In this document: positions 3,579 to 39,443 of the stretch, in pieces
Position numbering within the stretch: the first letter of the stretch is position 1
Layout: every line of letters begins with the position of its first letter
Assembly: GCF_024168825.1 (NCBI RefSeq)
Contig: NZ_JALJWH010000001.1
Coordinates: 4,278,001 to 4,342,000 of the forward strand
Direction of reading: 5' to 3'
DNA from: Paenarthrobacter sp. A20
Lineage (GTDB): Bacteria; Actinomycetota; Actinomycetes; Actinomycetales; Micrococcaceae
Length of the DNA: 64,000 nucleotides
The notes under the pieces: model-generated
Databases searched by the model: none
What the model was told of the DNA's origin: nothing
Seen by the model: the letters and a program-made list of their open reading frames with translations, nothing else
Program-made: the position numbers and the translations under genes

Positions 3579-4777
3579 CCACGCAGGTGAGGGATGAAGC
3601 CCGGCCGCGGGGCCATGCGGCCGACGTCGGACTTCCCCCGGGCCAGGGGTTCGCAACCTGGTTCCGGAAGCACTTGGCCTGGATTGGGATCGGCGGATTG
3701 TTGGCTGGCCTTGTTGCTTTTCTTGCCATCTCCAGCGTGTCCGCCTCGAAGGATCCACGGCCGCTGTCCGCACACAATCCAGCGCCCGATGGTGCCATGG
3801 CCGTGGCCGAAATACTGGGGCGCCAAGGCGTATCCGTCACGCCGACAAACACCTTTGAGGACACCATGGCGGCCTTGACCAACCAAAACGGCGCCACTGT
3901 CCTCGTCCATGATCCGCGGGGGTTCCTTGATCAAACCCAACTGGCAGACCTCATGGCCGGGGCTGATCGGGTAGTCCTGGTCAAGCCACGGCTCAAAACA
4001 ATAACGGCGGTAAATCAAGGCTTCCGTCCCGGTGGCGTGGTTCCTGAAGCAACAAAGGTCATCGATCCCGGATGTGATCAGGACGACGCCAGGGCGGCAG
4101 GCAGGATCTCGGCACAAGGCTCCATCTATTCGGGGCCGGTAGTCTGCTATGCCTTGCCGGGCAATCAGTCAGGCCTCTATGCCGCGTCGGCGGACAGCCG
4201 GGTAATAGTCCTTGGCAGCACGGATCTGGTTGACAATCAACACCTCGCATTGGAAGGCAACGCCGCCGTTGCGCTCCGTACCCTTGGCGCCAACGCCAAC
4301 CTCGTCTGGTACCTACCGGGAATCGAGGACCTCTCGGCGGCTGGCTCGGCCCCCACGCTGAACGAGTTGGCGCCGCGTTGGCTGGCTTTCGCCGGACCTT
4401 GGCTGGGACTCGTGGTGGTCCTGGCCATCGCTTGGCGTGGCCGACGCCTGGGCCCGCTGGTGTTCGAGCCACTTCCCGTGGTGGTCAAGGCCGCGGAAAC
4501 TGCAGAAGGCAGGGCACGCCTTTACCAGGACTCGCGGGCTGTGGGGCTTGCCGCGGGCAATCTACGGGCAGGGGCATTGACCCGCTTGGCCAAGCACTTC
4601 AGCCTCGGCGCAGACGCAACCAAGGACGCCATTGTGGACGCCTGTGCCCAACACCTGGAGCGGCCTGCAGCGGACATACGGTCCGTCCTGATCGACTTTT
4701 TACCGGAAAACGAAGGACAACTGGTGCAGTGGGCACAACAGATCGAACGAATCGAACAGGAGGCGACCGCCCGATGA
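3575..4777 (+). CDS. DUF4350 domain membrane protein
   Basis: A 400-residue protein with a membrane helix near residues 31-50, an extracytoplasmic or luminal domain of about 210 residues, and a second helix near 267-288 followed by a charged cytoplasmic tail. The first part (RPLSAHNPAPDGAMAVAEIL) matches the DUF4350 type, a GATase-like fold that accompanies MoxR-DUF58 operons. It starts with an ATGA overlap with the DUF4129 gene and ends four bases past the ATG of the MoxR gene. No enzymatic residues can be assigned from sequence alone. Confidence 0.8.
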   Translation: MTTQVRDEARPRGHAADVGLPPGQGFATWFRKHLAWIGIGGLLAGLVAFLAISSVSASKDPRPLSAHNPAPDGAMAVAEILGRQGVSVTPTNTFEDTMAALTNQNGATVLVHDPRGFLDQTQLADLMAGADRVVLVKPRLKTITAVNQGFRPGGVVPEATKVIDPGCDQDDARAAGRISAQGSIYSGPVVCYALPGNQSGLYAASADSRVIVLGSTDLVDNQHLALEGNAAVALRTLGANANLVWYLPGIEDLSAAGSAPTLNELAPRWLAFAGPWLGLVVVLAIAWRGRRLGPLVFEPLPVVVKAAETAEGRARLYQDSRAVGLAAGNLRAGALTRLAKHFSLGADATKDAIVDACAQHLERPAADIRSVLIDFLPENEGQLVQWAQQIERIEQEATAR

Positions 4778-5877
4778 GCAGCCAGCCGAACAGCTACACG
4801 GACAGCAACAGCCAATACACGGGCGGTGCCCCGCAGCAGCAGGGCCTCCCGCAGCAGAGCGTGGCGCCAGGCAATGACGCCCTGGGAAGTGGTCACCGCA
4901 CTGCAGCTGGGGAGCCGCGGACAACTGATGACCCTGCCCGCCAATCCCTGCTGAATGTCCGGGCCGAAGTGGCGAAGGCGGTTGTCGGGCAGGACCCTAC
5001 GGTCACTGGCATGCTTATTGCGCTGCTTTGTGGCGGCCACGTGCTCCTGGAGGGCGTCCCCGGCGTAGCAAAAACCCTGCTGGTGAGGGCCTTGTCCACC
5101 GCGTTGAGCCTGGACACCAAGCGTGTTCAGTTCACCCCGGACCTCATGCCCGGCGACGTTACGGGCTCCCTCGTCTACGACTCCCATTCTTCCGAATTCA
5201 CGTTCCGCGAAGGTCCCGTCTTCACCAACATCATGCTCGCGGACGAGATCAACCGTACGCCGCCGAAGACCCAGGCGTCCCTCTTGGAGGCCATGGAGGA
5301 GCGTCAAGTATCCGTGGATGGAGTTTCGCGCCGGCTTCCGAATCCGTTCATCGTGGCCGCCACCCAAAACCCGGTGGAGTACGAAGGTACTTATCCCTTG
5401 CCTGAAGCCCAGCTGGACCGGTTCCTCCTCAAGCTCACCATGCCGCTGCCTGGAAGGGCCGAGGAGATCGAGGTGATCCGGCGCCATGCCGCCGGTTTCG
5501 ATCCGCGAAACCTCGCCGCTGCAGGTGTGCGGGCGGTGGCGGGCGCCCTCGAGCTTTCCGCTGCCCAGGCAGCAGTAGCGCATGTAGTTGTCGCTCCCGA
5601 GATCCTCGGTTACATCGTTGACGTTGTACGCGCCACGAGGTCCGCGCCTTCCTTCCAGCTGGGAGTCTCGCCCCGTGGTGCGACGGCACTGCTCAATACC
5701 TCCAAAGCATGGGCGTGGCTGTCCGGGAGGTCCTTCGTCACTCCGGACGACGTCAAGGCGTTGTCGTTGCCGTGCCTTCGGCACCGGGTTGCCCTCCGTC
5801 CGGAAGCACAGATGGATGGAATCCAGGTGGACGATGTCCTGGGCAGCATCCTCGCTTCGGTTCCGGTGCCGAGGTGA
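4774..5877 (+). CDS. MoxR-family AAA+ ATPase
   Basis: A 367-residue AAA+ ATPase of the MoxR type, a chaperone-like class that acts with VWA or DUF58 partners in protein-complex maturation and stress tolerance. After a 50-residue Gln/Ser-rich N-terminal tail come Walker A GVPGVAKT (K100), Walker B LADEIN (D157, E158), sensor 1 in AATQNPVEYEGTYPLPEAQ, and an arginine-finger region near LDRF. The ATG at 4774 is chosen because it overlaps the DUF4350 stop and has AGGAGG about ten bases upstream; a longer in-frame extension runs inside the previous gene. It is translationally linked to its neighbours. Confidence 0.93.
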   Translation: MSSQPNSYTDSNSQYTGGAPQQQGLPQQSVAPGNDALGSGHRTAAGEPRTTDDPARQSLLNVRAEVAKAVVGQDPTVTGMLIALLCGGHVLLEGVPGVAKTLLVRALSTALSLDTKRVQFTPDLMPGDVTGSLVYDSHSSEFTFREGPVFTNIMLADEINRTPPKTQASLLEAMEERQVSVDGVSRRLPNPFIVAATQNPVEYEGTYPLPEAQLDRFLLKLTMPLPGRAEEIEVIRRHAAGFDPRNLAAAGVRAVAGALELSAAQAAVAHVVVAPEILGYIVDVVRATRSAPSFQLGVSPRGATALLNTSKAWAWLSGRSFVTPDDVKALSLPCLRHRVALRPEAQMDGIQVDDVLGSILASVPVPR

Positions 5878-5909
5878 GCTCCGGCCGGATCCTGCCCGGG
5901 GCGGCCTGA

Positions 5910-7202
5910 ATGGCCATCACGGGTCGTTTCGTGCTGCTTGCCCTGGCCGGATTAGTGCCGTTGGTGTTGTTTCCCGCAGGAAGCACGGTTCTGTTCACTG
6001 GCGTCGGGTTACTGATGATGCTGGTACTTGACGTGCTCCTGGCGGCGTCGCCTGCAAAGCTCGGACTGGACCGCCAACAGCCCGGAAACGTGACCCTGCA
6101 GGGCAGGGCGGACTCTGTTGTGACGCTCACCAACCCCACCCGTCGGAAATTGCGGGCCGAGGTAAGGGACGCGTGGCAGCCCTCTGCCGGTGCCGTGCAT
6201 CCTGTCCAACCGTTGGTGGTCCCCCCGGGCGAGCGGCGTCGCATGAGAGTGGAGCTGGTTCCCAGCCGCCGCGGTGACCTGGAAAGCCCCCACGTCACCA
6301 TTCGTTCCTTCGGACCACTCGGCATGGCGGCCAGGCAACGGACGCGCATCCTTCCCGGTCAGCTGAGGGTCCTGCCGCCTTTCCACTCGAAGCGCCATCT
6401 GCCCTCCAAGCTCCGCAAGCTCCGGGAGCTGGATGGCAGGGCAGCCGTGCAGATTCGCGGGGCCGGAACAGAATTCGATTCCCTCCGCGATTACGTCCGC
6501 GGTGATGACGTCCGGTCCATCGATTGGCGCGCCACAGCACGCCGGACATCAGTGGTTGTCCGGACGTGGCGCCCGGAACGCGACCGGCGGGTGGTCATTG
6601 TCCTGGATACCTCTCGTACAGCCGCCGCCAGGATCGTGGACGAGCCCCGCCTCGATACGGGAATCGAAGCGGCCTTACTGCTCTCGGTACTTGCCGAACG
6701 CGGTGGGGACCGGGTTGACTTCCTTGCTTACGACCGCCGGCTCCGGGCCCGGGTCGAATCGGCGTCCAAAGGCAACCTCCTGGGCCAACTTGTCCAGGCC
6801 ATGGCTCCTTTGGAAGCGGAACTGATCGAACTGGACTGGCAGCAAATCCCGGCGCAAGTGCGGGCGGTCTCGGCGCACCGCTCGCTGGTGGTGCTGTTGA
6901 CGGCGCTCGACGGCGGCGCCCCCGAAGAAGGGCTCCTCCCCACTGTGGCGCAATTGTCCCGCCAACACGTGGTGGTGGTTGCTTCGGTACGGGACCCCCT
7001 GCTGGCGGCCATGAAGGAAGAACGGACCACAGCAAGCCAAGTGTTTCGTGCCGCCGCCGCCGAACGGGCTTTGTTGGAAAGGGCAGCAGTGACAGCCCAG
7101 CTCCGGCAACTGGGGGCCGAGGTGGTCGATGCAGAGCCGCTGGAGGTTCCACCCCTGCTCGCCGACACGTATATCCGGCTCAAAGCCGCCGGAAGGCTCT
7201 AG
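5910..7202 (+). CDS. DUF58 domain protein (MoxR partner)
   Basis: A 430-residue protein with two N-terminal membrane helices (about 7-22 and 27-46) and a DUF58 domain whose hallmark is GTEFDSLRDYVRGDDVRSID followed by WRATAR (about 187-212). A VWA-like region follows (VIVLDTSRT). DUF58 proteins are the usual partners of MoxR ATPases. The start is fixed at 5910 because an in-frame TGA lies directly before the ATG. It lies 32 bases after the MoxR stop and 25 bases before the DUF4166 gene. Confidence 0.9.
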   Translation: MAITGRFVLLALAGLVPLVLFPAGSTVLFTGVGLLMMLVLDVLLAASPAKLGLDRQQPGNVTLQGRADSVVTLTNPTRRKLRAEVRDAWQPSAGAVHPVQPLVVPPGERRRMRVELVPSRRGDLESPHVTIRSFGPLGMAARQRTRILPGQLRVLPPFHSKRHLPSKLRKLRELDGRAAVQIRGAGTEFDSLRDYVRGDDVRSIDWRATARRTSVVVRTWRPERDRRVVIVLDTSRTAAARIVDEPRLDTGIEAALLLSVLAERGGDRVDFLAYDRRLRARVESASKGNLLGQLVQAMAPLEAELIELDWQQIPAQVRAVSAHRSLVVLLTALDGGAPEEGLLPTVAQLSRQHVVVVASVRDPLLAAMKEERTTASQVFRAAAAERALLERAAVTAQLRQLGAEVVDAEPLEVPPLLADTYIRLKAAGRL

Positions 7203-7227
7203 TTCCCATTGTCCGGAAAGGACTGCC

Positions 7228-7953
7228 ATGAACGCCCCGATCTACCAGCTCGCACTTGGCGATGACTTCACCAAGCTGACCCCGGAGCTCCAGGACTACT
7301 TCTCGCTGGCCGCCGGTTCCGGTTCCTACGGAATAGGGGAAGGCACCTTTGACGTGGTGGGTTGCCGGCAGAAGTGGCTGCGTCCCCTGCTCGCCCTCAC
7401 GGGGAGCGAGCAAGCATTCTTCCCGGAGTACGGCGAGGGCATCCGGTTCCGCATCGAGAACCACGCACACATTGATCCTTTTGGACGCCCTGCCCTGACT
7501 GCCCGGCGTGAGATCTATTTTCCCTCCGGGACAAGGCTGTTCCACGATACAACGAGCGCGGTCATGCCGGACCACGGCCGGCAGAGCGGACCGGAGCGGG
7601 CCCATCTGGTGGACCACGTGGGACGGTATCGGCGGCTGGTGACGGATCTGGATGTCAGTGTCACCACCGAGGGCAGGCTCCGTGGTGTTTCCAAGGCGAG
7701 CAGGCTGTTCCTGGGCCCCCTTCGACTTCCTTTGCCGGCAGCGCTGGACGCGCGCGCCTATGCGGAGCAGTGGTGGGACAGTGCCGAGGGCAAACACCGG
7801 ATCCAGGTCAAGGTGATCCAGCCACAGATCGGATTGGTCCTCGTGTATGCCGGACGCTTCGACTACCGGTTGGTGCCGTACCTGCCCGGAGCAGCACCGG
7901 GCACAGCCCTGCCGCGCTACGCAGAACCAGACCGTTGGGAAAAGAGGATCTAG
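7228..7953 (+). CDS. DUF4166 domain protein
   Basis: A 241-residue soluble protein with the DUF4166 pattern, recognised from segments such as GSGSYGIGEGTFDV near the start and RRLVTDLDVSVTTEGRLRGVSK in the middle. No catalytic residues are known to me for this family. The ATG at 7228 has GGAAAGGA upstream with good spacing; an earlier in-frame start would overlap the DUF58 gene by 74 bases and was rejected. It is probably the last gene of the MoxR operon, although family members elsewhere often accompany unrelated oxidoreductases. Confidence 0.75.
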   Translation: MNAPIYQLALGDDFTKLTPELQDYFSLAAGSGSYGIGEGTFDVVGCRQKWLRPLLALTGSEQAFFPEYGEGIRFRIENHAHIDPFGRPALTARREIYFPSGTRLFHDTTSAVMPDHGRQSGPERAHLVDHVGRYRRLVTDLDVSVTTEGRLRGVSKASRLFLGPLRLPLPAALDARAYAEQWWDSAEGKHRIQVKVIQPQIGLVLVYAGRFDYRLVPYLPGAAPGTALPRYAEPDRWEKRI

Positions 7954-7998
7954 CGCGGCCGCCTTCAGCCCTGCGTCACCGTCACCGCTGTGCCAACT

Positions 7999-9033
7999 TC
8001 ACCCTTGTGCCAACTGGTCCAGCCCGTCGGCTGTCTGGGTCAGTTTCTTCAGCACATCCATGGCCGCTGAAGGCTTGAAGCCCGCGAGGCCCGAGGAGGG
8101 TGTGACGCGGATTCCGGCCAGGCCCGAGGCCGGCAGGCCAAGCTGACGCCACGGCTTCCAGATACTCTCAACAACGTCTGAAGTCCGGGGCAGCCGCCCT
8201 TGCGGGTCGCTGATGTGCAGCGCCCCGGCCCACACGCGTTTGCCGCTCTCCACAGCGCCCGCGAGCTGTTCCCACTGGCGGGTGGTCAGTGCCCTCAGGG
8301 GAACGGCGACGCCGTCGGCTCCTGCAGCAAGAATCCGTTCGATCGGCGCCTCTACCTCCGGAACGGAGACCACAGTCTCGACGACGCCTGCAGCCTTGAG
8401 TGCCTCGATCACCAGACGCCATGCCGCCGTGACTTCTTCGCCGGCCACGGACCGGAGCGTGCGGTAGCCACTCGCCGTCGGGATCGTCCCAGCCATAACC
8501 GAGGCGATATCCGGTTCGTCCACCTGGACCACGATGCCGGCGCCTGGAACTGCCGCCGAGATCCGACGGACATGATCGGCGACGCCGGCGGCCAGGGACT
8601 CCGCGATGTCCCGGCGGGCTCCGTAGTCCAGTAGCGCCCGTTCGCCGTTGTGCAGGTGGAGGTTCGCCGCGAGGCTCATGGGACCCAACAACTGGATCTT
8701 GAGTTCCGCCGCAGAAACGTCTTCGGCGCCCGCGACGTCGGCAAGGATATTGATGTCCGTCGACAAAGCCGAGCGTGCGCGCCGGGCGTCCTTTCCTGGC
8801 CTGTCAACCAGGCGCCACCCGTGCGGTTGGACGTCAAGGGCCAGGTCAACAAGCAGGGAGCCGGTCCGCCCAACCGGATCCGAGCCCACTCCGCGGTCCG
8901 GCAGCTCGGGCACGAACGGAAGGTGGGGATCCCCCAATTCGCCCCGGATTATCCGGATTGCCTCCGCAGGATCGCTGCCTGGCCAAGGGCCCAGTGCAGT
9001 GGCGCTGGCGCGCTGGTCATTCTCTGACGACAT
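7999..9033 (-). CDS. MetE-like (cobalamin-independent methionine synthase C-terminal fold) protein without zinc ligands
   Basis: A 344-residue protein usually annotated as methionine synthase because it resembles the C-terminal TIM barrel of MetE. Visible relics are the segment LKIQLLGPMSLAANL and the VQVDEPDI strand, which corresponds to the conserved QVDEP of MetE. It contains no cysteine at all, and the HxC zinc motif position reads SVPEVEAP, so the zinc centre that activates homocysteine cannot form. The ATG at 9031-9033 is preferred; a TTG directly upstream is possible. It starts three bases after the chorismate mutase stop, so the two are an operon. The substrate is unknown. Confidence 0.75.
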   Translation of the reverse strand: MSSENDQRASATALGPWPGSDPAEAIRIIRGELGDPHLPFVPELPDRGVGSDPVGRTGSLLVDLALDVQPHGWRLVDRPGKDARRARSALSTDINILADVAGAEDVSAAELKIQLLGPMSLAANLHLHNGERALLDYGARRDIAESLAAGVADHVRRISAAVPGAGIVVQVDEPDIASVMAGTIPTASGYRTLRSVAGEEVTAAWRLVIEALKAAGVVETVVSVPEVEAPIERILAAGADGVAVPLRALTTRQWEQLAGAVESGKRVWAGALHISDPQGRLPRTSDVVESIWKPWRQLGLPASGLAGIRVTPSSGLAGFKPSAAMDVLKKLTQTADGLDQLAQG

Positions 9034-9036
9034 CAA

Positions 9037-9426
9037 CTATGCCTGCAGGCGTGAAATCTGGTGATCCTCTGCGATGGCTTCGTGGTGGCGGATCACTTCG
9101 CTGATGATGAAGTTCAGGAATTTCTCCGCGAAGGCGGGATCAAGGTGTGCATCCTCGGCAAGCCGGCGCAGGCGGGCAATCTGGGCAGACTCGCGGCCCG
9201 GGTCTCCGGCAGGAAGCTTATGCGTGGCCTTGAGCACCCCTACCTTTTGGGTTGCTTTGAAACGCTCCGCGAGCAGGAATACGAGTGTTGCGTCGATGTT
9301 GTCGATGCTTGACCGAATGGACAGCAGCTCATCCATGACGGCACGGTCCACCTGGCCGGCCAAGGAACTCGCTGCCGGGTTGAAGGAATCGGCGTCATCG
9401 GAAAGGGCGTTGTTGTGCTCGGTCAT
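9037..9426 (-). CDS. Chorismate mutase, AroQ type
   Basis: A 129-residue all-helical protein converting chorismate to prephenate in phenylalanine and tyrosine synthesis. The AroQ core runs from about residue 30 to 120 (MDELLSIRSSIDNIDATLVF, then LLAERFKATQKVGVLKA) and carries the conserved Arg, Asp, Lys and Arg pattern of helix 1 and the ERFK helix. The ATG at 9424-9426 is chosen; the longer in-frame extension upstream has no family resemblance. No periplasmic signal is present, so it is cytoplasmic. It is the first gene of a two-gene unit with the MetE-like protein and is divergent from the oxidoreductase at 9576. Confidence 0.9.
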   Translation of the reverse strand: MTEHNNALSDDADSFNPAASSLAGQVDRAVMDELLSIRSSIDNIDATLVFLLAERFKATQKVGVLKATHKLPAGDPGRESAQIARLRRLAEDAHLDPAFAEKFLNFIISEVIRHHEAIAEDHQISRLQA

Positions 9427-9575
9427 GCATCCCAGTCTATGGTGCCGGGCGGCACCGCCGCGGGTGTTACCTTCGCACGTCGGACCCAACAGGCCAATGC
9501 GGCAAAGTCGGTTTCCCCGCGGCCGGGATCGGAGCACAATGGCAGCATCACTGCTGGTTTGGCAAAGGAGCTTCC

Positions 9576-10232
9576 ATGAAAATCGCGGTTCTGGGCACGG
9601 GTATGGTGGGGCACGCCCTGGCGGGCAAGCTGGTGTCCTTGGGACATGAAGTAACCATGGGATCCCGGGAACCCGGCAATCCGAGGGGAGAGGAATGGGC
9701 CCGGCAGGCCGGCACACAGGCCCATGCCGGCTCCTTCGCCGATGCAGCAGGGCAATCCGAGCTGATTGTGAACGCCACGCCGGGCACTGTGAGCCTGGCA
9801 GCCCTCGCCGAGGCAGGCGAAGCCAACCTCAAGGGCAAGATCCTGCTGGACGTGTCCAATGCCCTGGACTCTTCGAGTGGCTTTCCCCCATCACTGGCCG
9901 TATGCAATACGGACAGCATCGCTGAGACCATCCAGCGGACATATCCGGACGTTCGGGTGGTCAAATCTCTGAATACGGTCAGCGCGCCGGTCATGGTGGA
10001 GCCGGCCAGGCTCCCCGGTCCCCATGACATTTTCATGGCTGGCAATGACCAAGGGGCCAAGTCCACTGTCTCCGGGTTGCTGCAGGAATTCGGCTGGGCA
10101 CCTGAGCACATCAGGGACCTTGGCGGCCTCGACGCTGCCCGCGGATTGGAGATGTGGCTGCCGCTATGGCTCCGGATCTTCATGCAGCAGCCGCAGGGAA
10201 AAATGTTCAACATCGGTATCGTTTCCGAATAG
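9576..10232 (+). CDS. NADPH-dependent F420 reductase-like dinucleotide-binding protein
   Basis: A 218-residue Rossmann-fold protein of the NADP-oxidoreductase, coenzyme F420-dependent family. The N-terminal MKIAVLGTGMVGHALAGKL gives the GxGxxG dinucleotide motif, and GSREP about 20 residues later supplies the Ser/Arg pair expected to bind the 2'-phosphate of NADPH. The C-terminal part contains the substrate-side segment VVKSLNTVSAPVM. The ATG at 9576 is preceded by AAAGGAGC. It is a single-gene unit ending at a strong bidirectional terminator. Many members work without F420, so the true substrate is open. Confidence 0.85.
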   Translation: MKIAVLGTGMVGHALAGKLVSLGHEVTMGSREPGNPRGEEWARQAGTQAHAGSFADAAGQSELIVNATPGTVSLAALAEAGEANLKGKILLDVSNALDSSSGFPPSLAVCNTDSIAETIQRTYPDVRVVKSLNTVSAPVMVEPARLPGPHDIFMAGNDQGAKSTVSGLLQEFGWAPEHIRDLGGLDAARGLEMWLPLWLRIFMQQPQGKMFNIGIVSE

Positions 10233-10253
10233 CCCGAGCACCTCCAGCACAGG

Positions 10254-10286
10254 AAAGGCACGCCCCTCGCCATGGGGCGTGCCTTT
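10254..10286. terminator. Bidirectional intrinsic terminator
   Basis: A perfect 13-bp stem (aaaggcacgcccc paired with ggggcgtgccttt) with a 7-base loop lies between the convergent oxidoreductase gene and the peptide-importer ATPase gene. The A- and T-rich ends fit use in both directions. Confidence 0.85.
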
Positions 10287-10304
10287 CATTTACCAGGGCC
10301 GGGT

Positions 10305-12011
10305 CTAGCCGCCCAGCAGCGCGCGGTGGGCTTCCCGCCGTCGTGCCTGTTCGTCAGGGTCCGGTACCGGCAGGGACGCAATGAGCCGCTTGGTGTAGTC
10401 GTGCTGAGGCGAGCCCATCACATGGTTCCCGATCCCCTGCTCCACCAGTTGGCCCTTGTAGAGAACCCCCACCCAGTGGGACAACATGTCCACCACAGCG
10501 AGGTCGTGGCTGATGAACAGCGCCGCAAAACCGAACTGCTCCTGGATGTCCTTGAACAGGTCCAGGACCTTCGCCTGAACGGAAACGTCCAAGGCGGAGG
10601 TGGGTTCGTCGGCGATCAGGAGGCGTGGGTTCAGCGCCAGCGACCTCGCCAAGGAGGCGCGCTGCCGCTGCCCGCCGGACAGCTCGTGCGGGTAGCGTTG
10701 CGCGTACGACGCCGGCAGCTGGACTGACTCGAGCAGCTCACCTACCTTTTTCCTCGCCTCAGCCGCGCTCGGCTTGGTGTGGATCATGAGCGGTTCAGCG
10801 ACGCACTCACCGATGGTGAGGTGCGGATTGAACGAGGCCGCCGGATCCTGGAAGACGAAGCCGATCTCCTTGCGGAGCGGACGGAAAGTACGCTCCTTGA
10901 AATCCAGCATTTCGTAGCCCAGCACCTTCAGGCTGCCGCCGGTTGTCCGGTTCAGCCCCGCAATGGCCCGTCCGATGGTCGACTTGCCCGAGCCGGACTC
11001 CCCCACCAGGCCAAAGACCTCGTTCTCCGAGACCGTGAAGCTGACGTTGTCCACGGCTTTGAACCCGTGCCTGCCGAACCTGCCCGGGTATTCGATGGTG
11101 AGGTTCTTCGCTTCCACCAGGATTTTGCCGTCCTGGTGGAGGCGCCCCCGGGCGCCTTCCGAAGCCGAATGGCGTCCCAGATGCGGCACGGCCGCCAGCA
11201 GCTTCTTGGTGTAGTCCTCTTGTGGATCAGCGAAGAGGACCCGGGAAGGAGCTTCCTCCACCACGTCGCCCTGGTACATGACCACTACCCTGTCCGCGAG
11301 ATCGGCAACCACACCCATGTTGTGGGTGATGAGCACAATCGAGGTCCCATAGTTGTCCCTCAAATCACGCAGGAGCTGCAGGATTTCCGCTTGAACCGTG
11401 ACATCCAACGCGGTGGTCGGCTCATCGGCCACGATCAGCCCCGGGTTCAGGGCCAGCGCCGCCGCGATGACCACGCGCTGTTTCTGGCCGCCGGAGAACT
11501 GGTGCGGGTAGTAGTTGACCCGGGTTTCAGGGTCGGGGATACCCACCTTGCGCAGTGCCTCGGTTGCCCGTTGCTTTGCCTCCTTGGCGGAGACGCGCTT
11601 GCCGTCGGTTGCGTGCGCCCGGATGCCTTCGGCAATTTGCCAGCCAACGGTAAAGACGGGATTCAAAGCCGTGGAAGGTTCCTGGAACACCATGGCCACA
11701 TCGCGTCCGCGGATCTTGCGGAGCGTGGATTTGCTGACGCTGATCACGTTGTTGCCGTTGATCACCACCGCGCCCGAACTAATGGCTGTTTCCGGGAGCA
11801 GGCCAAGGATGGTCTTGGCGGTCACGGTCTTGCCGGATCCCGACTCGCCCACGATCGCAACGACTTCACCAGCCTTCACGTCAAGGCTTACGTCCTTGAC
11901 GGCGTGCACATCGCCGCCATCGGTGGCGAAGGTGACCTGGAGACGGTCGATGGTGAGAACCGGCTGGCCACTGCCCGCCCGGTCCGACACATTTCCAAGG
12001 TTGGTGGTCAT
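10305..12011 (-). CDS. Di/oligopeptide ABC transporter, fused double ATP-binding protein
   Basis: A 568-residue protein with two complete nucleotide-binding domains, equivalent to a DppD-DppF fusion, that powers peptide uptake. Domain 1 (about 20-265) has Walker A GESGSGKT and signature FSGGQKQR; domain 2 (about 300-545) has GESGSGKS and LSGGQRQR. Each domain ends with the oligopeptide-transporter C-terminal extension (for example HDYTKRLIASLPVPDPDE). The ATG at 12011 overlaps the stop of the upstream permease as ATGA. It is the last gene of the cluster and is followed by the terminator at 10254-10286. Confidence 0.95.
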   Translation of the reverse strand: MTTNLGNVSDRAGSGQPVLTIDRLQVTFATDGGDVHAVKDVSLDVKAGEVVAIVGESGSGKTVTAKTILGLLPETAISSGAVVINGNNVISVSKSTLRKIRGRDVAMVFQEPSTALNPVFTVGWQIAEGIRAHATDGKRVSAKEAKQRATEALRKVGIPDPETRVNYYPHQFSGGQKQRVVIAAALALNPGLIVADEPTTALDVTVQAEILQLLRDLRDNYGTSIVLITHNMGVVADLADRVVVMYQGDVVEEAPSRVLFADPQEDYTKKLLAAVPHLGRHSASEGARGRLHQDGKILVEAKNLTIEYPGRFGRHGFKAVDNVSFTVSENEVFGLVGESGSGKSTIGRAIAGLNRTTGGSLKVLGYEMLDFKERTFRPLRKEIGFVFQDPAASFNPHLTIGECVAEPLMIHTKPSAAEARKKVGELLESVQLPASYAQRYPHELSGGQRQRASLARSLALNPRLLIADEPTSALDVSVQAKVLDLFKDIQEQFGFAALFISHDLAVVDMLSHWVGVLYKGQLVEQGIGNHVMGSPQHDYTKRLIASLPVPDPDEQARRREAHRALLGG

Positions 12012-16043: not shown

Positions 16044-16072
16044 TTGTCCCGGTAGGGGTGCGGGAATATCGT
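16044..16072 (+). promoter_or_regulatory. Candidate promoter of the caspase gene
   Basis: TTGTCC (16044-16049) and TATCGT (16067-16072) are separated by 17 bases and match the -35 and -10 consensus at four of six positions each. Transcription would begin near 16079, leaving a leader of about 40 bases before the ATG at 16120. Confidence 0.45.
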
Positions 16073-16119
16073 TGTCGAAGGGTCTCCACTCACTGAACGA
16101 CAGCCCAAAGGACAGGCAC

Positions 16120-16947
16120 ATGAGCAAGGCAGCACTCTGTGTAGGGATCAACAAGTTCAAGTTCCTACCGCAATCGAGTTGGCTCAACGGCTGCGTCAAC
16201 GATGCCGAAGACCTCGCCGAAATGTTGGAGAAACACTACGGCTTTGAAAGTTCCGCCATCACGGTTCTGCGCGATGCCAAGGCAGTGAAGAAAACGGTGA
16301 TGGCCGAACTCAACAAGTTGGTGGACACGGCGGTGGCGGGCACAGCCAACCACATCGTCTTCACTTTCTCCAGCCATGGAACGCAAGTGCCGGACACCAA
16401 CGGAGACGAGGGCGACCGCCTGGATGAGGCCTTCGCATGCTACGACATCAACAATTCCGGTGATGCCTGGGATCCGGACACCGTGATCTCGGACGACGAG
16501 CTGGCAGTGCTGTTCGCCCGGCTCCCCAAAGGTGTGCTCATGGACGTTGTGCTGGACACCTGCCACAGTGGGACCGGGCTCAAGTCTTTGGACCTGATTC
16601 CCGGTCGCCGCCCCCGCTTCCTGCCGGCTCCTACGCCCCGCGCAGTCATCGCCAACGAATCCAAGGACACCCGCAGCCTGAGGGACATGGTCAGGACCGC
16701 GAAACTCTCGACGCCGGTCTTGATGGCCGCTTGCCGTTCTGACCAGACAGCCGCAGATGCCTTGATCGATGGGCGGTATAACGGTGCGTTCACCTACAAC
16801 TTCGTGAAGTCCCTGCTGGGCGACAGCACGGTGGGACGGGCTGAGATCCTGAAGCAGGTCAGCAAAGGACTCAAGTCCGGCGGCTTCGACCAAGTCGCCC
16901 AATTGGAAGCTTCGACGGCGGCAGGCAAGGCTGCTTGGGGCGCCTGA
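16120..16947 (+). CDS. Caspase-family (metacaspase-like, C14) cysteine peptidase
   Basis: A 275-residue protein made almost entirely of a caspase-haemoglobinase fold domain. The catalytic pair is visible: His86 in FTFSSHGTQVPD and Cys148 in VVLDTCHSGTGL, with the acidic specificity-pocket type sequence GDRLDEAFACYD between them. The p10-like part ends with MAACRSDQTAADA and RYNGAFTYNF. It has no signal peptide or membrane helix, so it should act in the cytoplasm, and it lacks the extra sensor or adhesion domains often fused to bacterial caspases. The ATG at 16120 has AAAGGA seven bases upstream. It runs toward a thermolysin-like HEXXH gene, with only 30 bases between the stops. Its substrate is unknown. 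Confidence 0.9.
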   Translation: MSKAALCVGINKFKFLPQSSWLNGCVNDAEDLAEMLEKHYGFESSAITVLRDAKAVKKTVMAELNKLVDTAVAGTANHIVFTFSSHGTQVPDTNGDEGDRLDEAFACYDINNSGDAWDPDTVISDDELAVLFARLPKGVLMDVVLDTCHSGTGLKSLDLIPGRRPRFLPAPTPRAVIANESKDTRSLRDMVRTAKLSTPVLMAACRSDQTAADALIDGRYNGAFTYNFVKSLLGDSTVGRAEILKQVSKGLKSGGFDQVAQLEASTAAGKAAWGA

Positions 16948-16977
16948 CCCGCGCTGCCCGCTTCATCCCCTCATCAG

Positions 16978-18615
16978 CTAGTCGCCCGTGCCATGGAACT
17001 TGTCCCGGACTCCGGATGAGGCAGCTTCTTCGGCATCATGACGTTGGTCGGAGCCAAATAACTGTCCTTGGCGCTCCCTGTCCATGACTGGTTTCAGGGC
17101 GGCATACACAAGGCGGCCGCCGGCGTCGAAGCGCAGCAGCCCTCCCCCACGGATGTCCACGAAGTCCCTCCGCGTCCTCAGTCCAAGGCGGACGTACGCC
17201 TCCCGTCGGCTCATGCGGACCGTCTGGATGAACGAGGCCCCTATCTCGGAAATGATGAAACCGTCCGGGGAGACACGCTCAGAGGTGCGTACACGCGTGG
17301 AACTCAGGGGCGTCCGCCGTTCAAGCCGCGCCGCCTCCAGGAGCCGGGGATTCTCCCAGACGAAACGTTGCACCTCCTGGGGGTCGGAGCCGAGGGCAGA
17401 AAGCCTGATGGGATAACGGAGTCCCTGGTAATTGTCCACGCCGCTGATGTTGTTCATTGACACTCGACGGATACCGATCGCGGAGAACTCAGTTTGGAGT
17501 GCCTCGCGATACCCGTAGTTGTCTTCGGGAACCATGTCCACGTCAGCGGCAATGATGCCGCGCAGGAGATCCCGCCACGAGACGTCAACCGGAGGCATAT
17601 ACGAGAGTCCGCGAATCACCATCCGCAAGACCCTGATAGCCACGATCGAACCCGATTCGGCCTTCTGTTGGAGGCTTTGGCTGTCCCCGAAGCGGGCGTT
17701 CCGTTCCGACCACAGTCGTTGGACGGACCGTAGCACCGCACCCACCACGACGGCGCCGCGCGCATGGGGCTCCGGCATTGCCTGCCAGTCTTCCGGCACG
17801 GCGCCGACGAAAGGTTCACGCAAGGGACCGCGGGCAAAAAGGTCGCGTGCGAAGTCGAAGAGGGAACGCATCAGGACGGCATCATCCACAACCTGCCCGG
17901 CCTCAAAACCACCGCCTGCCGCTTCGAGTTGCCGGTAGACCACTTCACGGGATGAGAAGACGGAAAGAATGGCTACGATATCGGCCAAGGCTTCGTGCAT
18001 GGCCAGTTGCTCCATGGTGGCCATCTGGTCGGCCCAGGCCGGCCGGAAACCATCCAGAATCGCGTGCGTCACTTCGTGGGCAACGATGTCGCGATAGAGG
18101 GCAGTCGGCACTTTGTAGCCCATTCGGTCCACGGACCCGAAGCGAATGACGTTGGTTCCGCGCTCATAGCCTGTGTCAGTGGCGGTGATCAAGTCCCGCG
18201 CCTTGAGAACCACCCGGCCCTCAGGATTCCATGGCATGCGCCTGCCGAGCGTGCTTTCAAAAATGTCCAAGGTGCTCATCGCCACGCCATAGACGTGCTG
18301 GGCCAGGAAACGGGTGTCATCCAAAAGTTCACGTAAGCCCGTTGGCGGAGGTTCCGAGACCAGCTGCCAAGGATCTCCCTGTTGGGTCAGGGTCACCGGG
18401 GACACCGTAGTGCCGCGCCACTTCCGGATGTGGATGGCGTAGCGGTGACCCGTGGGACCACGCCTTAGGCGTTCCACCGGAATGCGAACCTGGGCTGTCA
18501 GCGGGGGCGCCCCCGAGGCGCCAATCGGCCCCTCGGCCAGAACGGTCACGGAGACCATCTGCCCGGCTTTGATGTCTCCCGGACTCTTCTTTGGAAATGC
18601 CACAGTCATCGCCAT
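16978..18615 (-). CDS. Cytoplasmic thermolysin-like (gluzincin) HEXXH protein of unknown function
   Basis: A 545-residue protein with a zinc-protease core. His180, Glu181 and His184 form HEVTH in DIVAHEVTHAILDGF, and 24 residues later MHEALADIVAIL supplies Glu208 and Asp212, matching the M4/gluzincin third ligand pattern (NEAxSD in thermolysin). A roughly 100-residue beta-rich N-terminal region and a C-terminal region of about 300 residues have no family I recognise. There is no signal peptide, unlike secreted thermolysins. The start could be the ATG at 18613-18615, the ATG at 18607-18609, or a TTG at 18631-18633. A good promoter and a small hairpin lie directly upstream. It converges on the caspase gene. 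Confidence 0.75.
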   Translation of the reverse strand: MAMTVAFPKKSPGDIKAGQMVSVTVLAEGPIGASGAPPLTAQVRIPVERLRRGPTGHRYAIHIRKWRGTTVSPVTLTQQGDPWQLVSEPPPTGLRELLDDTRFLAQHVYGVAMSTLDIFESTLGRRMPWNPEGRVVLKARDLITATDTGYERGTNVIRFGSVDRMGYKVPTALYRDIVAHEVTHAILDGFRPAWADQMATMEQLAMHEALADIVAILSVFSSREVVYRQLEAAGGGFEAGQVVDDAVLMRSLFDFARDLFARGPLREPFVGAVPEDWQAMPEPHARGAVVVGAVLRSVQRLWSERNARFGDSQSLQQKAESGSIVAIRVLRMVIRGLSYMPPVDVSWRDLLRGIIAADVDMVPEDNYGYREALQTEFSAIGIRRVSMNNISGVDNYQGLRYPIRLSALGSDPQEVQRFVWENPRLLEAARLERRTPLSSTRVRTSERVSPDGFIISEIGASFIQTVRMSRREAYVRLGLRTRRDFVDIRGGGLLRFDAGGRLVYAALKPVMDRERQGQLFGSDQRHDAEEAASSGVRDKFHGTGD

Positions 18616-18638
18616 CCCGAATGCGGACCCCAAACACC

Positions 18639-18654
18639 GCAGCGGAAGCGCTGC
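18639..18654. promoter_or_regulatory. Short perfect hairpin in the leader of the HEXXH gene
   Basis: GCAGCG and CGCTGC arms with a 4-base loop lie 8 bases downstream of the predicted -10 box and 24 bases before the ATG. The position suits an operator or a translation-controlling leader hairpin. Confidence 0.4.
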
Positions 18655-18661
18655 TTAGCCC

Positions 18662-18690
18662 AGTATGGAGTCGGTGGAATCCGGTGGCAA
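18662..18690 (-). promoter_or_regulatory. Candidate promoter of the HEXXH gene
   Basis: On the minus strand, TTGCCA (18690-18685) and CATACT (18667-18662) are spaced by 17 bases, matching the -35 consensus at five and the -10 consensus at four of six positions. The predicted start lies within or just before the leader hairpin. Confidence 0.5.
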
Positions 18691-18711: not shown

Positions 18712-19851
18712 CTAAAGCGCTACGCGCTGAAGAGAGCGGGCGGCGTCGATGGTCGCCTGGCCCAAGACCCGGCTGCCCTGGTAAAGGACCACGGTCTGGC
18801 CCGGAGCCACACCGCGGAGCGGATCGGTCAGTGTGACAACGAGCTCGGCCCGCTGAACACCCGATTCGTCGTCGACCAATTCAACGTGTGCCACCGCTGG
18901 AACGGGGTCACCGTGGGCCCGCACTTGGGCATGGCAGTCAAAGTCGGCGCCAGTAGCAACCTCGGAGATGGGCAACCCTGCCCACGAAACCTTGATGCCC
19001 CTGATTTCGTCGATGGCCAGCAATGCTTCCGGTCCCACAACTACCTTGTTTTCCTTGGGACGGATCTCAAGGACGAAGCGTGGTTTGCCGTCAGCCGCGG
19101 GGGTTCCCAGCTTGAGGCCGCGACGCTGTCCCACCGTGAAGGCGTTGGCGCCGGGGTGTTCTCCCACCTTGGCCCCGGTCTCGTCAACGATGTCGCCGGT
19201 GGTCATGTCGATCTTTTCGGCGAGCCACCCACGGGTGTCGCCGTCGGAAATGAAGCAGATATCGTGGCTGTCGGGCTTATTGGCCACGGACAGGCCCCGA
19301 CGTTCCGCTTCGGCGCGCACTTCTGCCTTGGACGGGGTCTCCGCCAGCGGGAACATGGAGTGCTTGAGCTGCTCATGGGTCAGGACGCCGAGGACGTAGC
19401 TCTGGTCCTTGGCCCAATCTGCAGCCCGGTGGAGTTCTCGGTTGCCGTCGGCATCTTCGATCACCTTGGCATAGTGCCCGGTGCATACGGCGTCGAAGCC
19501 CAGGGCTATGGCTTTCTCCAAGAGGGCAGCGAATTTGATGCGCTCGTTGCACCGCATGCAGGGGTTGGGGGTGCGGCCAGCGGCGTATTCGTCAATGAAG
19601 TCCTGGACGACGTCTTCCTTGAAGCGTTCCGAGAAGTCCCACACGTAGTAGGGGATGCCCAGGACGTCGCAAGCACGCCAAGCGTCACGGGAGTCCTCGA
19701 TGGTGCAGCAGCCCCGGCTTCCGGTGCGCAGGGTGCCGGGCATCCGCGACAACGCGAGGTGGACTCCGACGACGTCGTGTCCGGCCTCTACGGCGCGGGC
19801 GGCGGCCACGGCGGAGTCCACTCCGCCGCTCATTGCTGCAAGTACTCGCAT
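18712..19851 (-). CDS. mnmA: tRNA-specific 2-thiouridylase MnmA
   Basis: A 379-residue enzyme that installs 2-thiouridine at the wobble position 34 of Lys, Glu and Gln tRNAs, using ATP and sulfur relayed from a cysteine desulfurase. The N-terminal PP-loop [11 protein letters not shown] binds ATP. Catalytic cysteines are visible in [12 protein letters not shown] and in [11 protein letters not shown]. The C-terminal beta-barrel is complete. The ATG at 19851 is the natural start. A cysteine desulfurase gene lies 1.4 kb upstream on the same strand, separated by an opposing oxidoreductase gene. Confidence 0.95.
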
Positions 19852-39095: not shown

Positions 39096-39101
39096 CTCCA
39101 G

Positions 39102-39175
39102 TTGCGGGGACAGGATTTGAACCTGTGACCTCTGGGTTATGAGCCCAGCGAGCTACCGAACTGCTCCACCCCGCG
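39102..39175 (-). tRNA. Initiator tRNA-fMet (CAU), copy 1
   Basis: A 74-base cloverleaf with CAT anticodon. Initiator hallmarks are present: the first base C faces A at position 72 (unpaired C-A at the acceptor end), and the anticodon stem has three consecutive GGG-CCC pairs around ctcataa. The T arm GGTTCAAATCC is intact and CCA is not encoded. It is identical in the mature region to copy 2 at 39370-39443. Its -10 candidate, TAGAGT (39192-39187), lacks a good -35. Confidence 0.95.
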
Positions 39176-39325
39176 TCGCAAGAACAACTCTACCGCACCC
39201 CTCAGGGTACTTCTGACCATATGAGGGCAATGGTGCCGCAGATCACTTCCAGCATGCGCGGCTTCCACTGGATCCTCACGGGAAAGGTGATCAGGTTCGT
39301 GGCTCCGGGCAATTTCGGGCAAAAC

Positions 39326-39363
39326 AAAAGGTCCGGATCAGTAATTACTGATCCGGACCTTTT
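39326..39363 (-). terminator. Terminator of the second initiator tRNA unit (perfect 38-base palindrome)
   Basis: All 38 bases form a perfect inverted repeat (arms 39326-39344 and 39345-39363). It lies six bases downstream of the tRNA and shares its core with the terminator of copy 1, so the whole tRNA plus terminator unit is duplicated. Confidence 0.88.
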
Positions 39364-39369
39364 CTCCAG

Positions 39370-39443
39370 TTGCGGGGACAGGATTTGAACCTGTGACCTC
39401 TGGGTTATGAGCCCAGCGAGCTACCGAACTGCTCCACCCCGCG
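39370..39443 (-). tRNA. Initiator tRNA-fMet (CAU), copy 2
   Basis: The mature 74-base sequence is the same as copy 1, with the C1-A72 mismatch and three G-C pairs in the anticodon stem. The first 13 bases of upstream leader are also identical to copy 1. This copy has the better promoter of the two and its own terminator, so each unit is separately expressed. Confidence 0.95.

Follow-up and report, generated by a model that had tools for sequence, protein, structure and literature searches.

A convergent caspase and metallopeptidase gene pair

The window analyzed here, a stretch of 64,000 nucleotides from Paenarthrobacter sp. A20, contains two peptidase genes that converge tail to tail. The first (16120..16947, + strand) encodes a 275-residue caspase-fold peptidase of the metacaspase-like C14 type, and the second (16978..18615, - strand) encodes a 545-residue M36/M4-like gluzincin, which we call M; 30 bases (16948..16977) separate the two stop codons. 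A first-pass annotation of this DNA had described the convergence, the His86 and Cys148 of the caspase, and the HEVTH and EALAD motifs of its 545-residue neighbor, and all of these were confirmed. It had also credited each gene with a recognizable promoter, a claim that a consensus promoter scan did not confirm: the scan returned a single sigma-70-like site, upstream of M (18690-18662, - strand), where chance alone would give 0.8 sites across the stretch, and no site upstream of the caspase gene, for which other promoter types are possible.

The gene immediately before M, in the same orientation, is mnmA (18712..19851, - strand; Pfam PF03054), and a solute-binding protein gene lies on the other flank of the caspase gene. 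The locus is a fixed chromosomal site amid housekeeping genes, and we saw no sensor gene there. PADLOC gave the window pair no name other than the generic "caspase", and few of its families were matched among 70 neighbors in seven loci; the neighbor families are mostly housekeeping. We regard mnmA as a marker of one genomic context of the pair, outside the module. Based on 13 sequence comparisons, both genes look to be under constraint. In the nine comparisons with Paenarthrobacter or Arthrobacter relatives (M identity of at least 78%), dN/dS is 0.07-0.17 for the caspase and 0.03-0.10 for M. In the four more distant comparisons, for which dS is near-saturated, the values are 0.23-0.35 and 0.33-0.36, respectively (one M value was not computable).

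Predicted activities of the two proteins

The caspase matches the Pfam C14 model (E = 6.8e-22; 78.7 bits against a cut-off of 21.4), and by sequence its nearest solved structures are metacaspases, the best being 4f6o (Metacaspase-1; 7.8e-20). The catalytic residues H86 (16375-16377, + strand) and C148 (16561-16563, + strand) are present in all 46 linked homologs. D28 and D146 are kept in the same 46 proteins; we take them to be the metacaspase-like S1 acids, from which Arg/Lys specificity is predicted. By eye, neither the caspase nor M has a hydrophobic N-terminal leader. In sister lineages the caspase is fused to an alpha/beta hydrolase that is probably lipase-like, given a Foldseek match of the hydrolase domain to 2zyr (3.0e-3, probability 1.00) that falls outside the E <= 0.001 set. 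We rejected the idea that the window genome encodes a hydrolase partner at another site, as the hydrolase-caspase query matched this genome (G000) in the caspase region only; across the 206 genomes of the genus, the hydrolase part of the query matched only G015 and G152. In the sample of genomes from the order, 3 of 11 genomes with a close caspase were without M, and the caspase there follows a DUF7379-CHAT (hydrolase-CHAT) protein. One second caspase copy (G530; 42%) was left out of the neighborhood reading.

The predicted catalytic domain of M covers residues 19-390 (17446..18561, - strand; fold match over model residues 21-385) and includes the HEVTH zinc site at residues 180-184 (18078-18064, - strand) and the EALAD motif, with E208, at residues 208-212 (17994-17980, - strand). 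H180, E181, H184, and E208 are present in 48 of 48 homologs, and H284 is also conserved. In the structural model, the catalytic fold with its HEXXH motif and distal Glu corresponds to an M36/M4-fold gluzincin and is closer to M36 fungalysin than to thermolysin, which corrects the "thermolysin-like HEXXH protein" of the first-pass annotation. The match of M to Pfam M4 (PF01447) is sub-threshold (12.9 bits against a gathering cut-off of 22.4), and we find no match in NCBIfam or PADLOC at E <= 1 or among PDB sequences at E <= 10. M has no pro-domain, with the catalytic fold beginning at about residue 19 of 545, and many orthologs are recorded at 541-543 residues, that is, with a slightly later start. 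The family is large, with at least 2768 proteins at E <= 1e-3 in one search and at least 433 in another, and its tested members match no Pfam model. No relative of M turned up among viral contigs, in a scan that detects only close relatives.

The C-terminal domain of M (residues 400-534; 17014..17418, - strand) has no Pfam match, which bears out, for Pfam, the earlier remark that this region belongs to no known family. The catalytic domain dominated the matches in our fold search, and no fold was obtained for the C-terminal domain. Beyond it lies a conserved Phe-His tail (F540-H541; 16993..16998, - strand), with H541 present in 47 of 48 close homologs and F540 in 43 (Tyr in three). Most distant M proteins have similar F..H tails.

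M and the caspase are linked across genera and contexts

We find M (at least 49% identity) in 42 of the 206 genomes of the genus and the caspase (at least 63%) in the same 42. The two genes are adjacent in 39 genomes and present but unlinked in three (G022, G186, and G211). The state of the pair changes about five times across an MnmA tree built from 78 genomes, and hence the 42 genomes are not independent.

A scan of named genomes gave 49 close M loci, and an intact caspase is nearby in 46 of them. The caspase is tail to tail with M in 38 (stop-to-stop frame gaps of -68 to 132 bases) and 1957 bases away in one, and in seven a hydrolase-caspase gene lies directly upstream on M's strand. The caspase is elsewhere in the genome in two loci, and both genes are decayed in one (Cryobacterium sp. 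Y11). In terms of context, M has mnmA as a neighbor in 27 loci and a divergent hydrolase-caspase gene in 14; a hydrolase-caspase gene is upstream of M in seven, and one locus has neither. Close pairs occupy at least three genomic contexts and two arrangements, in five named genera (Arthrobacter, Paenarthrobacter, Sinomonas, Cryobacterium, and Paeniglutamicibacter) and in Micrococcaceae bacterium RIT 802. This neighborhood survey, which the first-pass annotation had suggested as a check, places the link well beyond chance; the outcome that the annotation had named as refuting, homologs of M only rarely near a caspase gene, did not hold for the close M family. Within a single genus, linkage and co-inheritance could suffice to account for joint loss, but a chance neighborhood with no functional link is highly improbable when the pair is seen in several contexts, two arrangements, and this range of taxa, and when M and the caspase are co-present even where unlinked; we discarded it on the recurrence across contexts.

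The arrangements also bear on mutual restraint of a toxin/antidote kind, in which M would degrade the caspase or the reverse. Separate convergent genes permit independent control and the two genes are present or absent together in the genus, both of which suit such a scheme. However, in seven loci the caspase gene immediately precedes M in the same orientation, and the partner swapping seen among distant relatives is a better fit to effector activation, such that we judge restraint quite unlikely.

Distant relatives of M adjoin MBL-fold, phospholipase, and defense genes

Among distant M loci, an MBL gene cluster is found in 15 of 24, a DUF2235/Tle1-like cluster in 11, and a patatin in three. 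The 25 distant M loci from the named-genome scan all lack a caspase of the window family. On plasmids, where 70 records had a match, all nine M loci that we read have an MBL-type gene downstream of M. Individual plasmid loci have a CBASS cyclase near M (L297), DUF1837 and DEAD/DEAH helicase genes adjoining M (L305), or multiubiquitin/ThiF genes near M (L304), and two M-MBL plasmids carry CBASS or Hachiman-type genes. In the wider family, most links are to MBL-fold and lipase genes rather than to a caspase of the window type.

For two of the MBL proteins, the best PADLOC match is LmuA (8.4e-18 and 2.7e-19), with Avs1a and RTasMBL also matched. The Pfam MBL assignment is borderline (17.6-23.3 bits against 22.7 in the four tested), and the MBL protein of locus L199 scores 35.7 bits of 420 against the NCBIfam Avs1a model. 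On these scores, we class the MBL neighbors of distant M as relatives, not members. The gene row of L199 reads Tle1-like, M, MBL, small ORF, and EACC1-type caspase, and this is the only locus in which an EACC1-type caspase was found near M. A caspase near M on an Isosphaeraceae plasmid (L299) was rejected as a pair: its start is hydrophobic and leader-like, an HTH gene intervenes, and phmmer gave no match between it and the window caspase.

Since genes of M's wider family often neighbor putative antiviral nucleases and lipases, the pair probably forms a protease relay in immunity or cell death. The conflict or cell-death setting raised in the first-pass annotation is supported only through M's relatives, with their MBL, CBASS, and Hachiman-type neighbors. 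We also weighed a resident proteolysis pair serving stress responses or protein quality, with no role in conflict. The fixed position, next to mnmA in 27 of 49 close loci, and the mostly housekeeping neighbors would suit such a pair, but its patchy presence (42 of 206 genomes), the relatives that adjoin CBASS, Hachiman-type, and MBL genes, and the hydrolase and CHAT neighbors or fusions argue against it, and we consider it unlikely.

A proposed metalloprotease-caspase relay

Based on the observed genes and catalytic residues, the linkage kept in several arrangements, and the swapping of partners, we propose, as a plausible though far from assured reading, that the pair is a two-protease conflict or cell-death module in which M cuts a latent caspase. 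M would be a cytoplasmic zinc endopeptidase of the M36/M4 fold, without the usual pro-domain, that serves as the constant activating protease for a partner slot holding an enzyme latent until cut. In distant relatives this slot would be filled by an LmuA/Avs1a-like MBL-fold protein, frequently accompanied by a phospholipase of Tle1-like or patatin type, and in the window pair by the metacaspase-like caspase that is hydrolase-fused in sister lineages. Upon a trigger, M would cut and activate the caspase, which would then execute. In this scheme we infer the zymogen state of the caspase, the direction from M to caspase, the trigger, and the outcome. More tentatively, M may represent an additional type of modular activating protease that serves bacterial immunity alongside the trypsin-like and caspase-like ones: a cytoplasmic zinc enzyme, latent via its own Phe-His tail, that would switch on an MBL pro-nuclease and a phospholipase in many lineages and a caspase in Arthrobacter, Cryobacterium, and kin, the latter being a metalloprotease-caspase cascade.

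A serious rival to this order, which we find possible but doubtful, is the reverse relay: the caspase acts first, cleaving M after a conserved Arg so that the catalytic domain is released from the C-terminal domain or His tail, and M executes. The Arg/Lys specificity predicted from D28 and D146, whose S1 role we assume, speaks for it, as does the conservation of Arg residues in M. In an alignment of 41 close and 16 distant M proteins, in which the distant alignment is uncertain in these regions, R49 and R58 occur in a fraction of 1.0 of close versus 0.06 of distant proteins and R404 in 0.95 versus 0.0. All three lie outside predicted helices and strands, with R404 at the junction of the catalytic and C-terminal domains. 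R441, R443, and R495 are also near-invariant in close M and rare in distant M, but they fall within predicted strands. That some loop Arg residues, R404 included, are conserved where M is linked to a caspase but not where it is linked to MBL genes favors the reverse relay. However, conservation does not prove that an Arg is cut, the Phe-His tail also occurs in M proteins without a caspase of the window family, and M beside MBL genes implies that M can work without a window-type caspase. By conservation, R49, R58, and R404 are candidate caspase cut sites, of which we claim none. We prefer the order in which M activates the caspase.

Activation by proteolysis is coming to be seen as a principle common to bacterial immune systems. 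Two unrelated proteases encoded as a conserved gene pair would carry this principle further, to a genuine cascade like that of animal apoptosis, and a testable role would be gained for a large family of metallopeptidases with no Pfam match in its tested members. Whether M cuts the proteins encoded beside it in its own loci (caspase, MBL protein, and lipases) becomes a testable question.

Comparison with known systems

PMC12799240 reports MBL pro-nucleases that are switched on by partner trypsins and, in Canu, by a caspase, and it also mentions "other diverse families". The likenesses are that genes for a protease and a hydrolase are paired, that distant M has MBL partners resembling the published type, and that a caspase is among the published activators. 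The differences are that the window pair has no MBL gene alongside, that M is an M36/M4-type zinc enzyme, and that the partner of M in the window pair is itself a protease; the Canu arrangement of a caspase gene and a downstream MBL pro-nuclease is absent here, the caspase gene being followed by M and then mnmA. The EACC1-caspase conflict systems, as described in PMC7159879, are likewise two-gene modules with a caspase, and the L199 row holds a caspase of this type. In contrast, the window caspase reaches 26.7 bits against the EACC1-associated caspase model NF047832, under its curated 140-bit cut-off, and is flanked by M and the solute-binding protein gene. A search of the literature by title or abstract start found no metallopeptidase-caspase gene pair.

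Unlike M36 fungalysin and M4 thermolysin, M has no Pfam M4 match above the cut-off, no pro-domain, and no visible leader, and it carries an extra C-terminal domain and the Phe-His tail. The window caspase resembles bacterial metacaspases and orthocaspases in being a C14 peptidase with a His/Cys dyad and, presumably, metacaspase-like S1 residues. It differs from them in its setting: in the loci read, the close-family caspase neighbors M or a CHAT protein, or else shares a genome with M.

A convergent caspase and metalloprotease gene pair

The caspase gene (16120-16947, + strand; 275 amino acids, H86/C148) and the gene for M, the M36/M4-like zinc protease (16978-18615, - strand; 545 amino acids, HEVTH 180-184, EALAD 208-212), are convergent with 30 bases between their stops, confirming the layout and motifs described in the first-pass annotation. 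A promoter for each gene, as it proposed, is not supported: upstream of M lies a single sigma-70-like site, where chance alone would give 0.8 in the stretch, and none lies upstream of the caspase. The caspase has a clear C14 domain (Pfam, 6.8e-22) and its nearest solved structures, by sequence, are metacaspases. M has no family match above cut-off, and its closest named homologues come from Paenarthrobacter and Arthrobacter. Elsewhere in the window (39101-39443, - strand) are two tRNA-Met genes with the same Rfam scores and starts about 270 bases apart.

Co-occurrence of M and the caspase

Among 206 genomes of the genus, M is present in 49 (42 at 49% identity or more over most of the protein) and the caspase in 51 (42 at 63% or more), and the two sets of 42 are identical. 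By the listed coordinates, M and the caspase are convergent neighbors in 39 of these 42 genomes; the remaining three (G022, G186, G211) have a caspase of 63-64% identity elsewhere in the genome, away from M, which in G022 is still at its ancestral place. Parsimony on an MnmA tree of the 78 genomes with the best MnmA matches, 41 of which have the pair, gives about five changes of pair state, so the 42 paired genomes are not independent. The evidence for linkage from outside the genus is stronger than these within-genus counts.

A scan of named genomes yielded 74 M loci, 49 with close homologues of the M described here (L111-L159) and 25 with distant relatives (L160-L184). M is tail-to-tail with a caspase in 38 of the 49 close loci, with stop-to-stop open-frame gaps of -68 to 132 bases; in L156 the gap is 1957 bases. 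Two loci (L117 and L118, taken as G186 and G211) have no local caspase, and in Cryobacterium sp. Y11 both genes are decayed. M adjoins mnmA in 27 close loci (Arthrobacter, Paenarthrobacter, Sinomonas) and a divergent gene for an alpha/beta hydrolase fused to a caspase in 14 (some Arthrobacter, Cryobacterium). In seven (Paeniglutamicibacter, two Arthrobacter and RIT 802) such a hydrolase-caspase gene immediately precedes M and shares its strand, and L156 has neither neighbor. Hydrolase-caspase frames in L135, L138, L139, L159, L043 and L048 finish, beyond a linker that varies, in similar tails of the FLRAxADFI type, which recall the Phe-His tail of M.

With the caspase as bait, 25 of 396 genomes of the order had some match and 11 a match of at least 51% identity; eight of these 11 also have M, and some of the genomes coincide with the named M loci. 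In the three without M (G411, G530, G591), the caspase gene is downstream of a gene for a protein of about 1120 amino acids, which in the two scanned loci, L300 and L302, carries the domains DUF7362, DUF7379 (whose motif points to an alpha/beta-hydrolase-like stretch), DUF7363 and CHAT; the L301 protein is homologous to these two. In all three the caspase adjoins a protease-type (CHAT) domain protein or its homologue. The 25 distant M loci (L160-L184) all lack a caspase of this family. Close M therefore goes with this caspase, but each family also occurs without the other. A single open frame in L043 (2-4507) combines DUF7363-CHAT, hydrolase and caspase domains.

The neighbors scanned were 70 ORFs from seven close loci. 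PADLOC (E at most 1e-10) matched 31 families; the 25 listed, each from one member, include JetA, JetB, JetC, MkoA, MkoC and a subtilase. The 25 listed of 72 Pfam families are mostly housekeeping, with one phage integrase. The surroundings of the close pair in these loci thus do not have the overall character of a defence island. By size and gene order, the Wadjet-type JetA/B/C genes probably lie in L157 (15-5646; Micrococcaceae bacterium RIT 802).

Neighbors of distant M relatives

Of 24 distant M loci (L160-L183; almost all with actinobacterial titles, and with crude gene calls), 15 have an MBL-type gene cluster, 11 a DUF2235/Tle1-like phospholipase cluster and 3 a patatin cluster; tested cluster members match PF09994 (2.5e-71) and PF01734 (6.5e-21). 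One locus, L171, has a subtilase gene upstream. The MBL proteins are borderline in Pfam, scoring 23.3 (L163), 22.0 (L174), 23.1 (L299) and 17.6 bits (L297) against a cut-off of 22.7. The two submitted to PADLOC have LmuA as their best match (8.4e-18 and 2.7e-19), followed by Avs1a and RTasMBL, and that of L199 scores 35.7 bits against the NCBIfam Avs1a cut-off of 420. In the order sample, M occurs with MBL in G550, and no MBL, Tle1-like or patatin match was found near M in G257 or G507. Locus L199 of G504 (4706-10968) is a single-strand row of genes for a Tle1-like phospholipase, M and an MBL protein, then a small ORF with no family match and an EACC1-type caspase (170.2 bits, cut-off 140). 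This row links M to EACC1-caspase systems.

M-like proteins also occur in 70 plasmid records, of which we analyzed nine (hits 1, 4, 6-9, 11-13; hits 1 and 4 almost duplicate each other, and the L306 and L308 records carried no gene annotation). Every one of the nine has an MBL-type gene downstream of M, immediately after it in eight and about 1.3 kb further on in L308. Six have Tle1-like or patatin genes, identified by phmmer in L296, L297, L304, L305 and L308 and from the annotation in L307. The L297 locus has a CBASS cyclase nearby, and L304 has multiubiquitin/ThiF genes. Hachiman consists of DUF1837 and a DEAD/DEAH helicase. Both genes are found in L305 (Agrobacterium tumefaciens plasmid pAtH25_79a, 3740-11125), directly downstream of patatin, M-like protease and MBL genes; this looks like a Hachiman-type locus in which a metalloprotease replaces the trypsin of the published pairs. 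In L306 (3084-6800, a Paraburkholderia replicon) the open frame with M has 1238 codons, long enough that M may be greatly extended or fused at its N-terminus.

Proposed mechanism

PMC12799240 describes MBL nucleases of Hachiman, AVAST and Canu that are latent until cut by a partner trypsin or caspase, and nuclease relatives that co-occur with proteases of other families. Beside MBL genes of a kind similar to the published ones, M occupies a protease position. If the positions are equivalent, M would be an activating protease, whose partner in Arthrobacter and its kin would have become a caspase. Protease-gated conflict modules are a kind already known; none of the papers listed by full-text searches of openly licensed literature, bioRxiv preprints excluded, deals with a bacterial gene pair of metallopeptidase and caspase, and the protease class of M and the combination of two proteases appear new.

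The simplest relay would run from a trigger to M, from M to the caspase and on to its targets, a direction we propose from sequence. The same caspase has either M or a CHAT protein beside it, a pattern consistent with interchangeable activators acting upstream. The main rival is the reverse order, in which the caspase would act on M. The caspase keeps D28 and D146, which we take to be the metacaspase S1 acids that would favor cutting after Arg or Lys, in 46 of 46 sequences, and several arginines are kept in caspase-linked M and not in MBL-linked M. Of these, R49 and R58 are in loops and R404 is at the boundary with the C-terminal domain; R441, R443 and R495, conserved in the same way, lie in strands.
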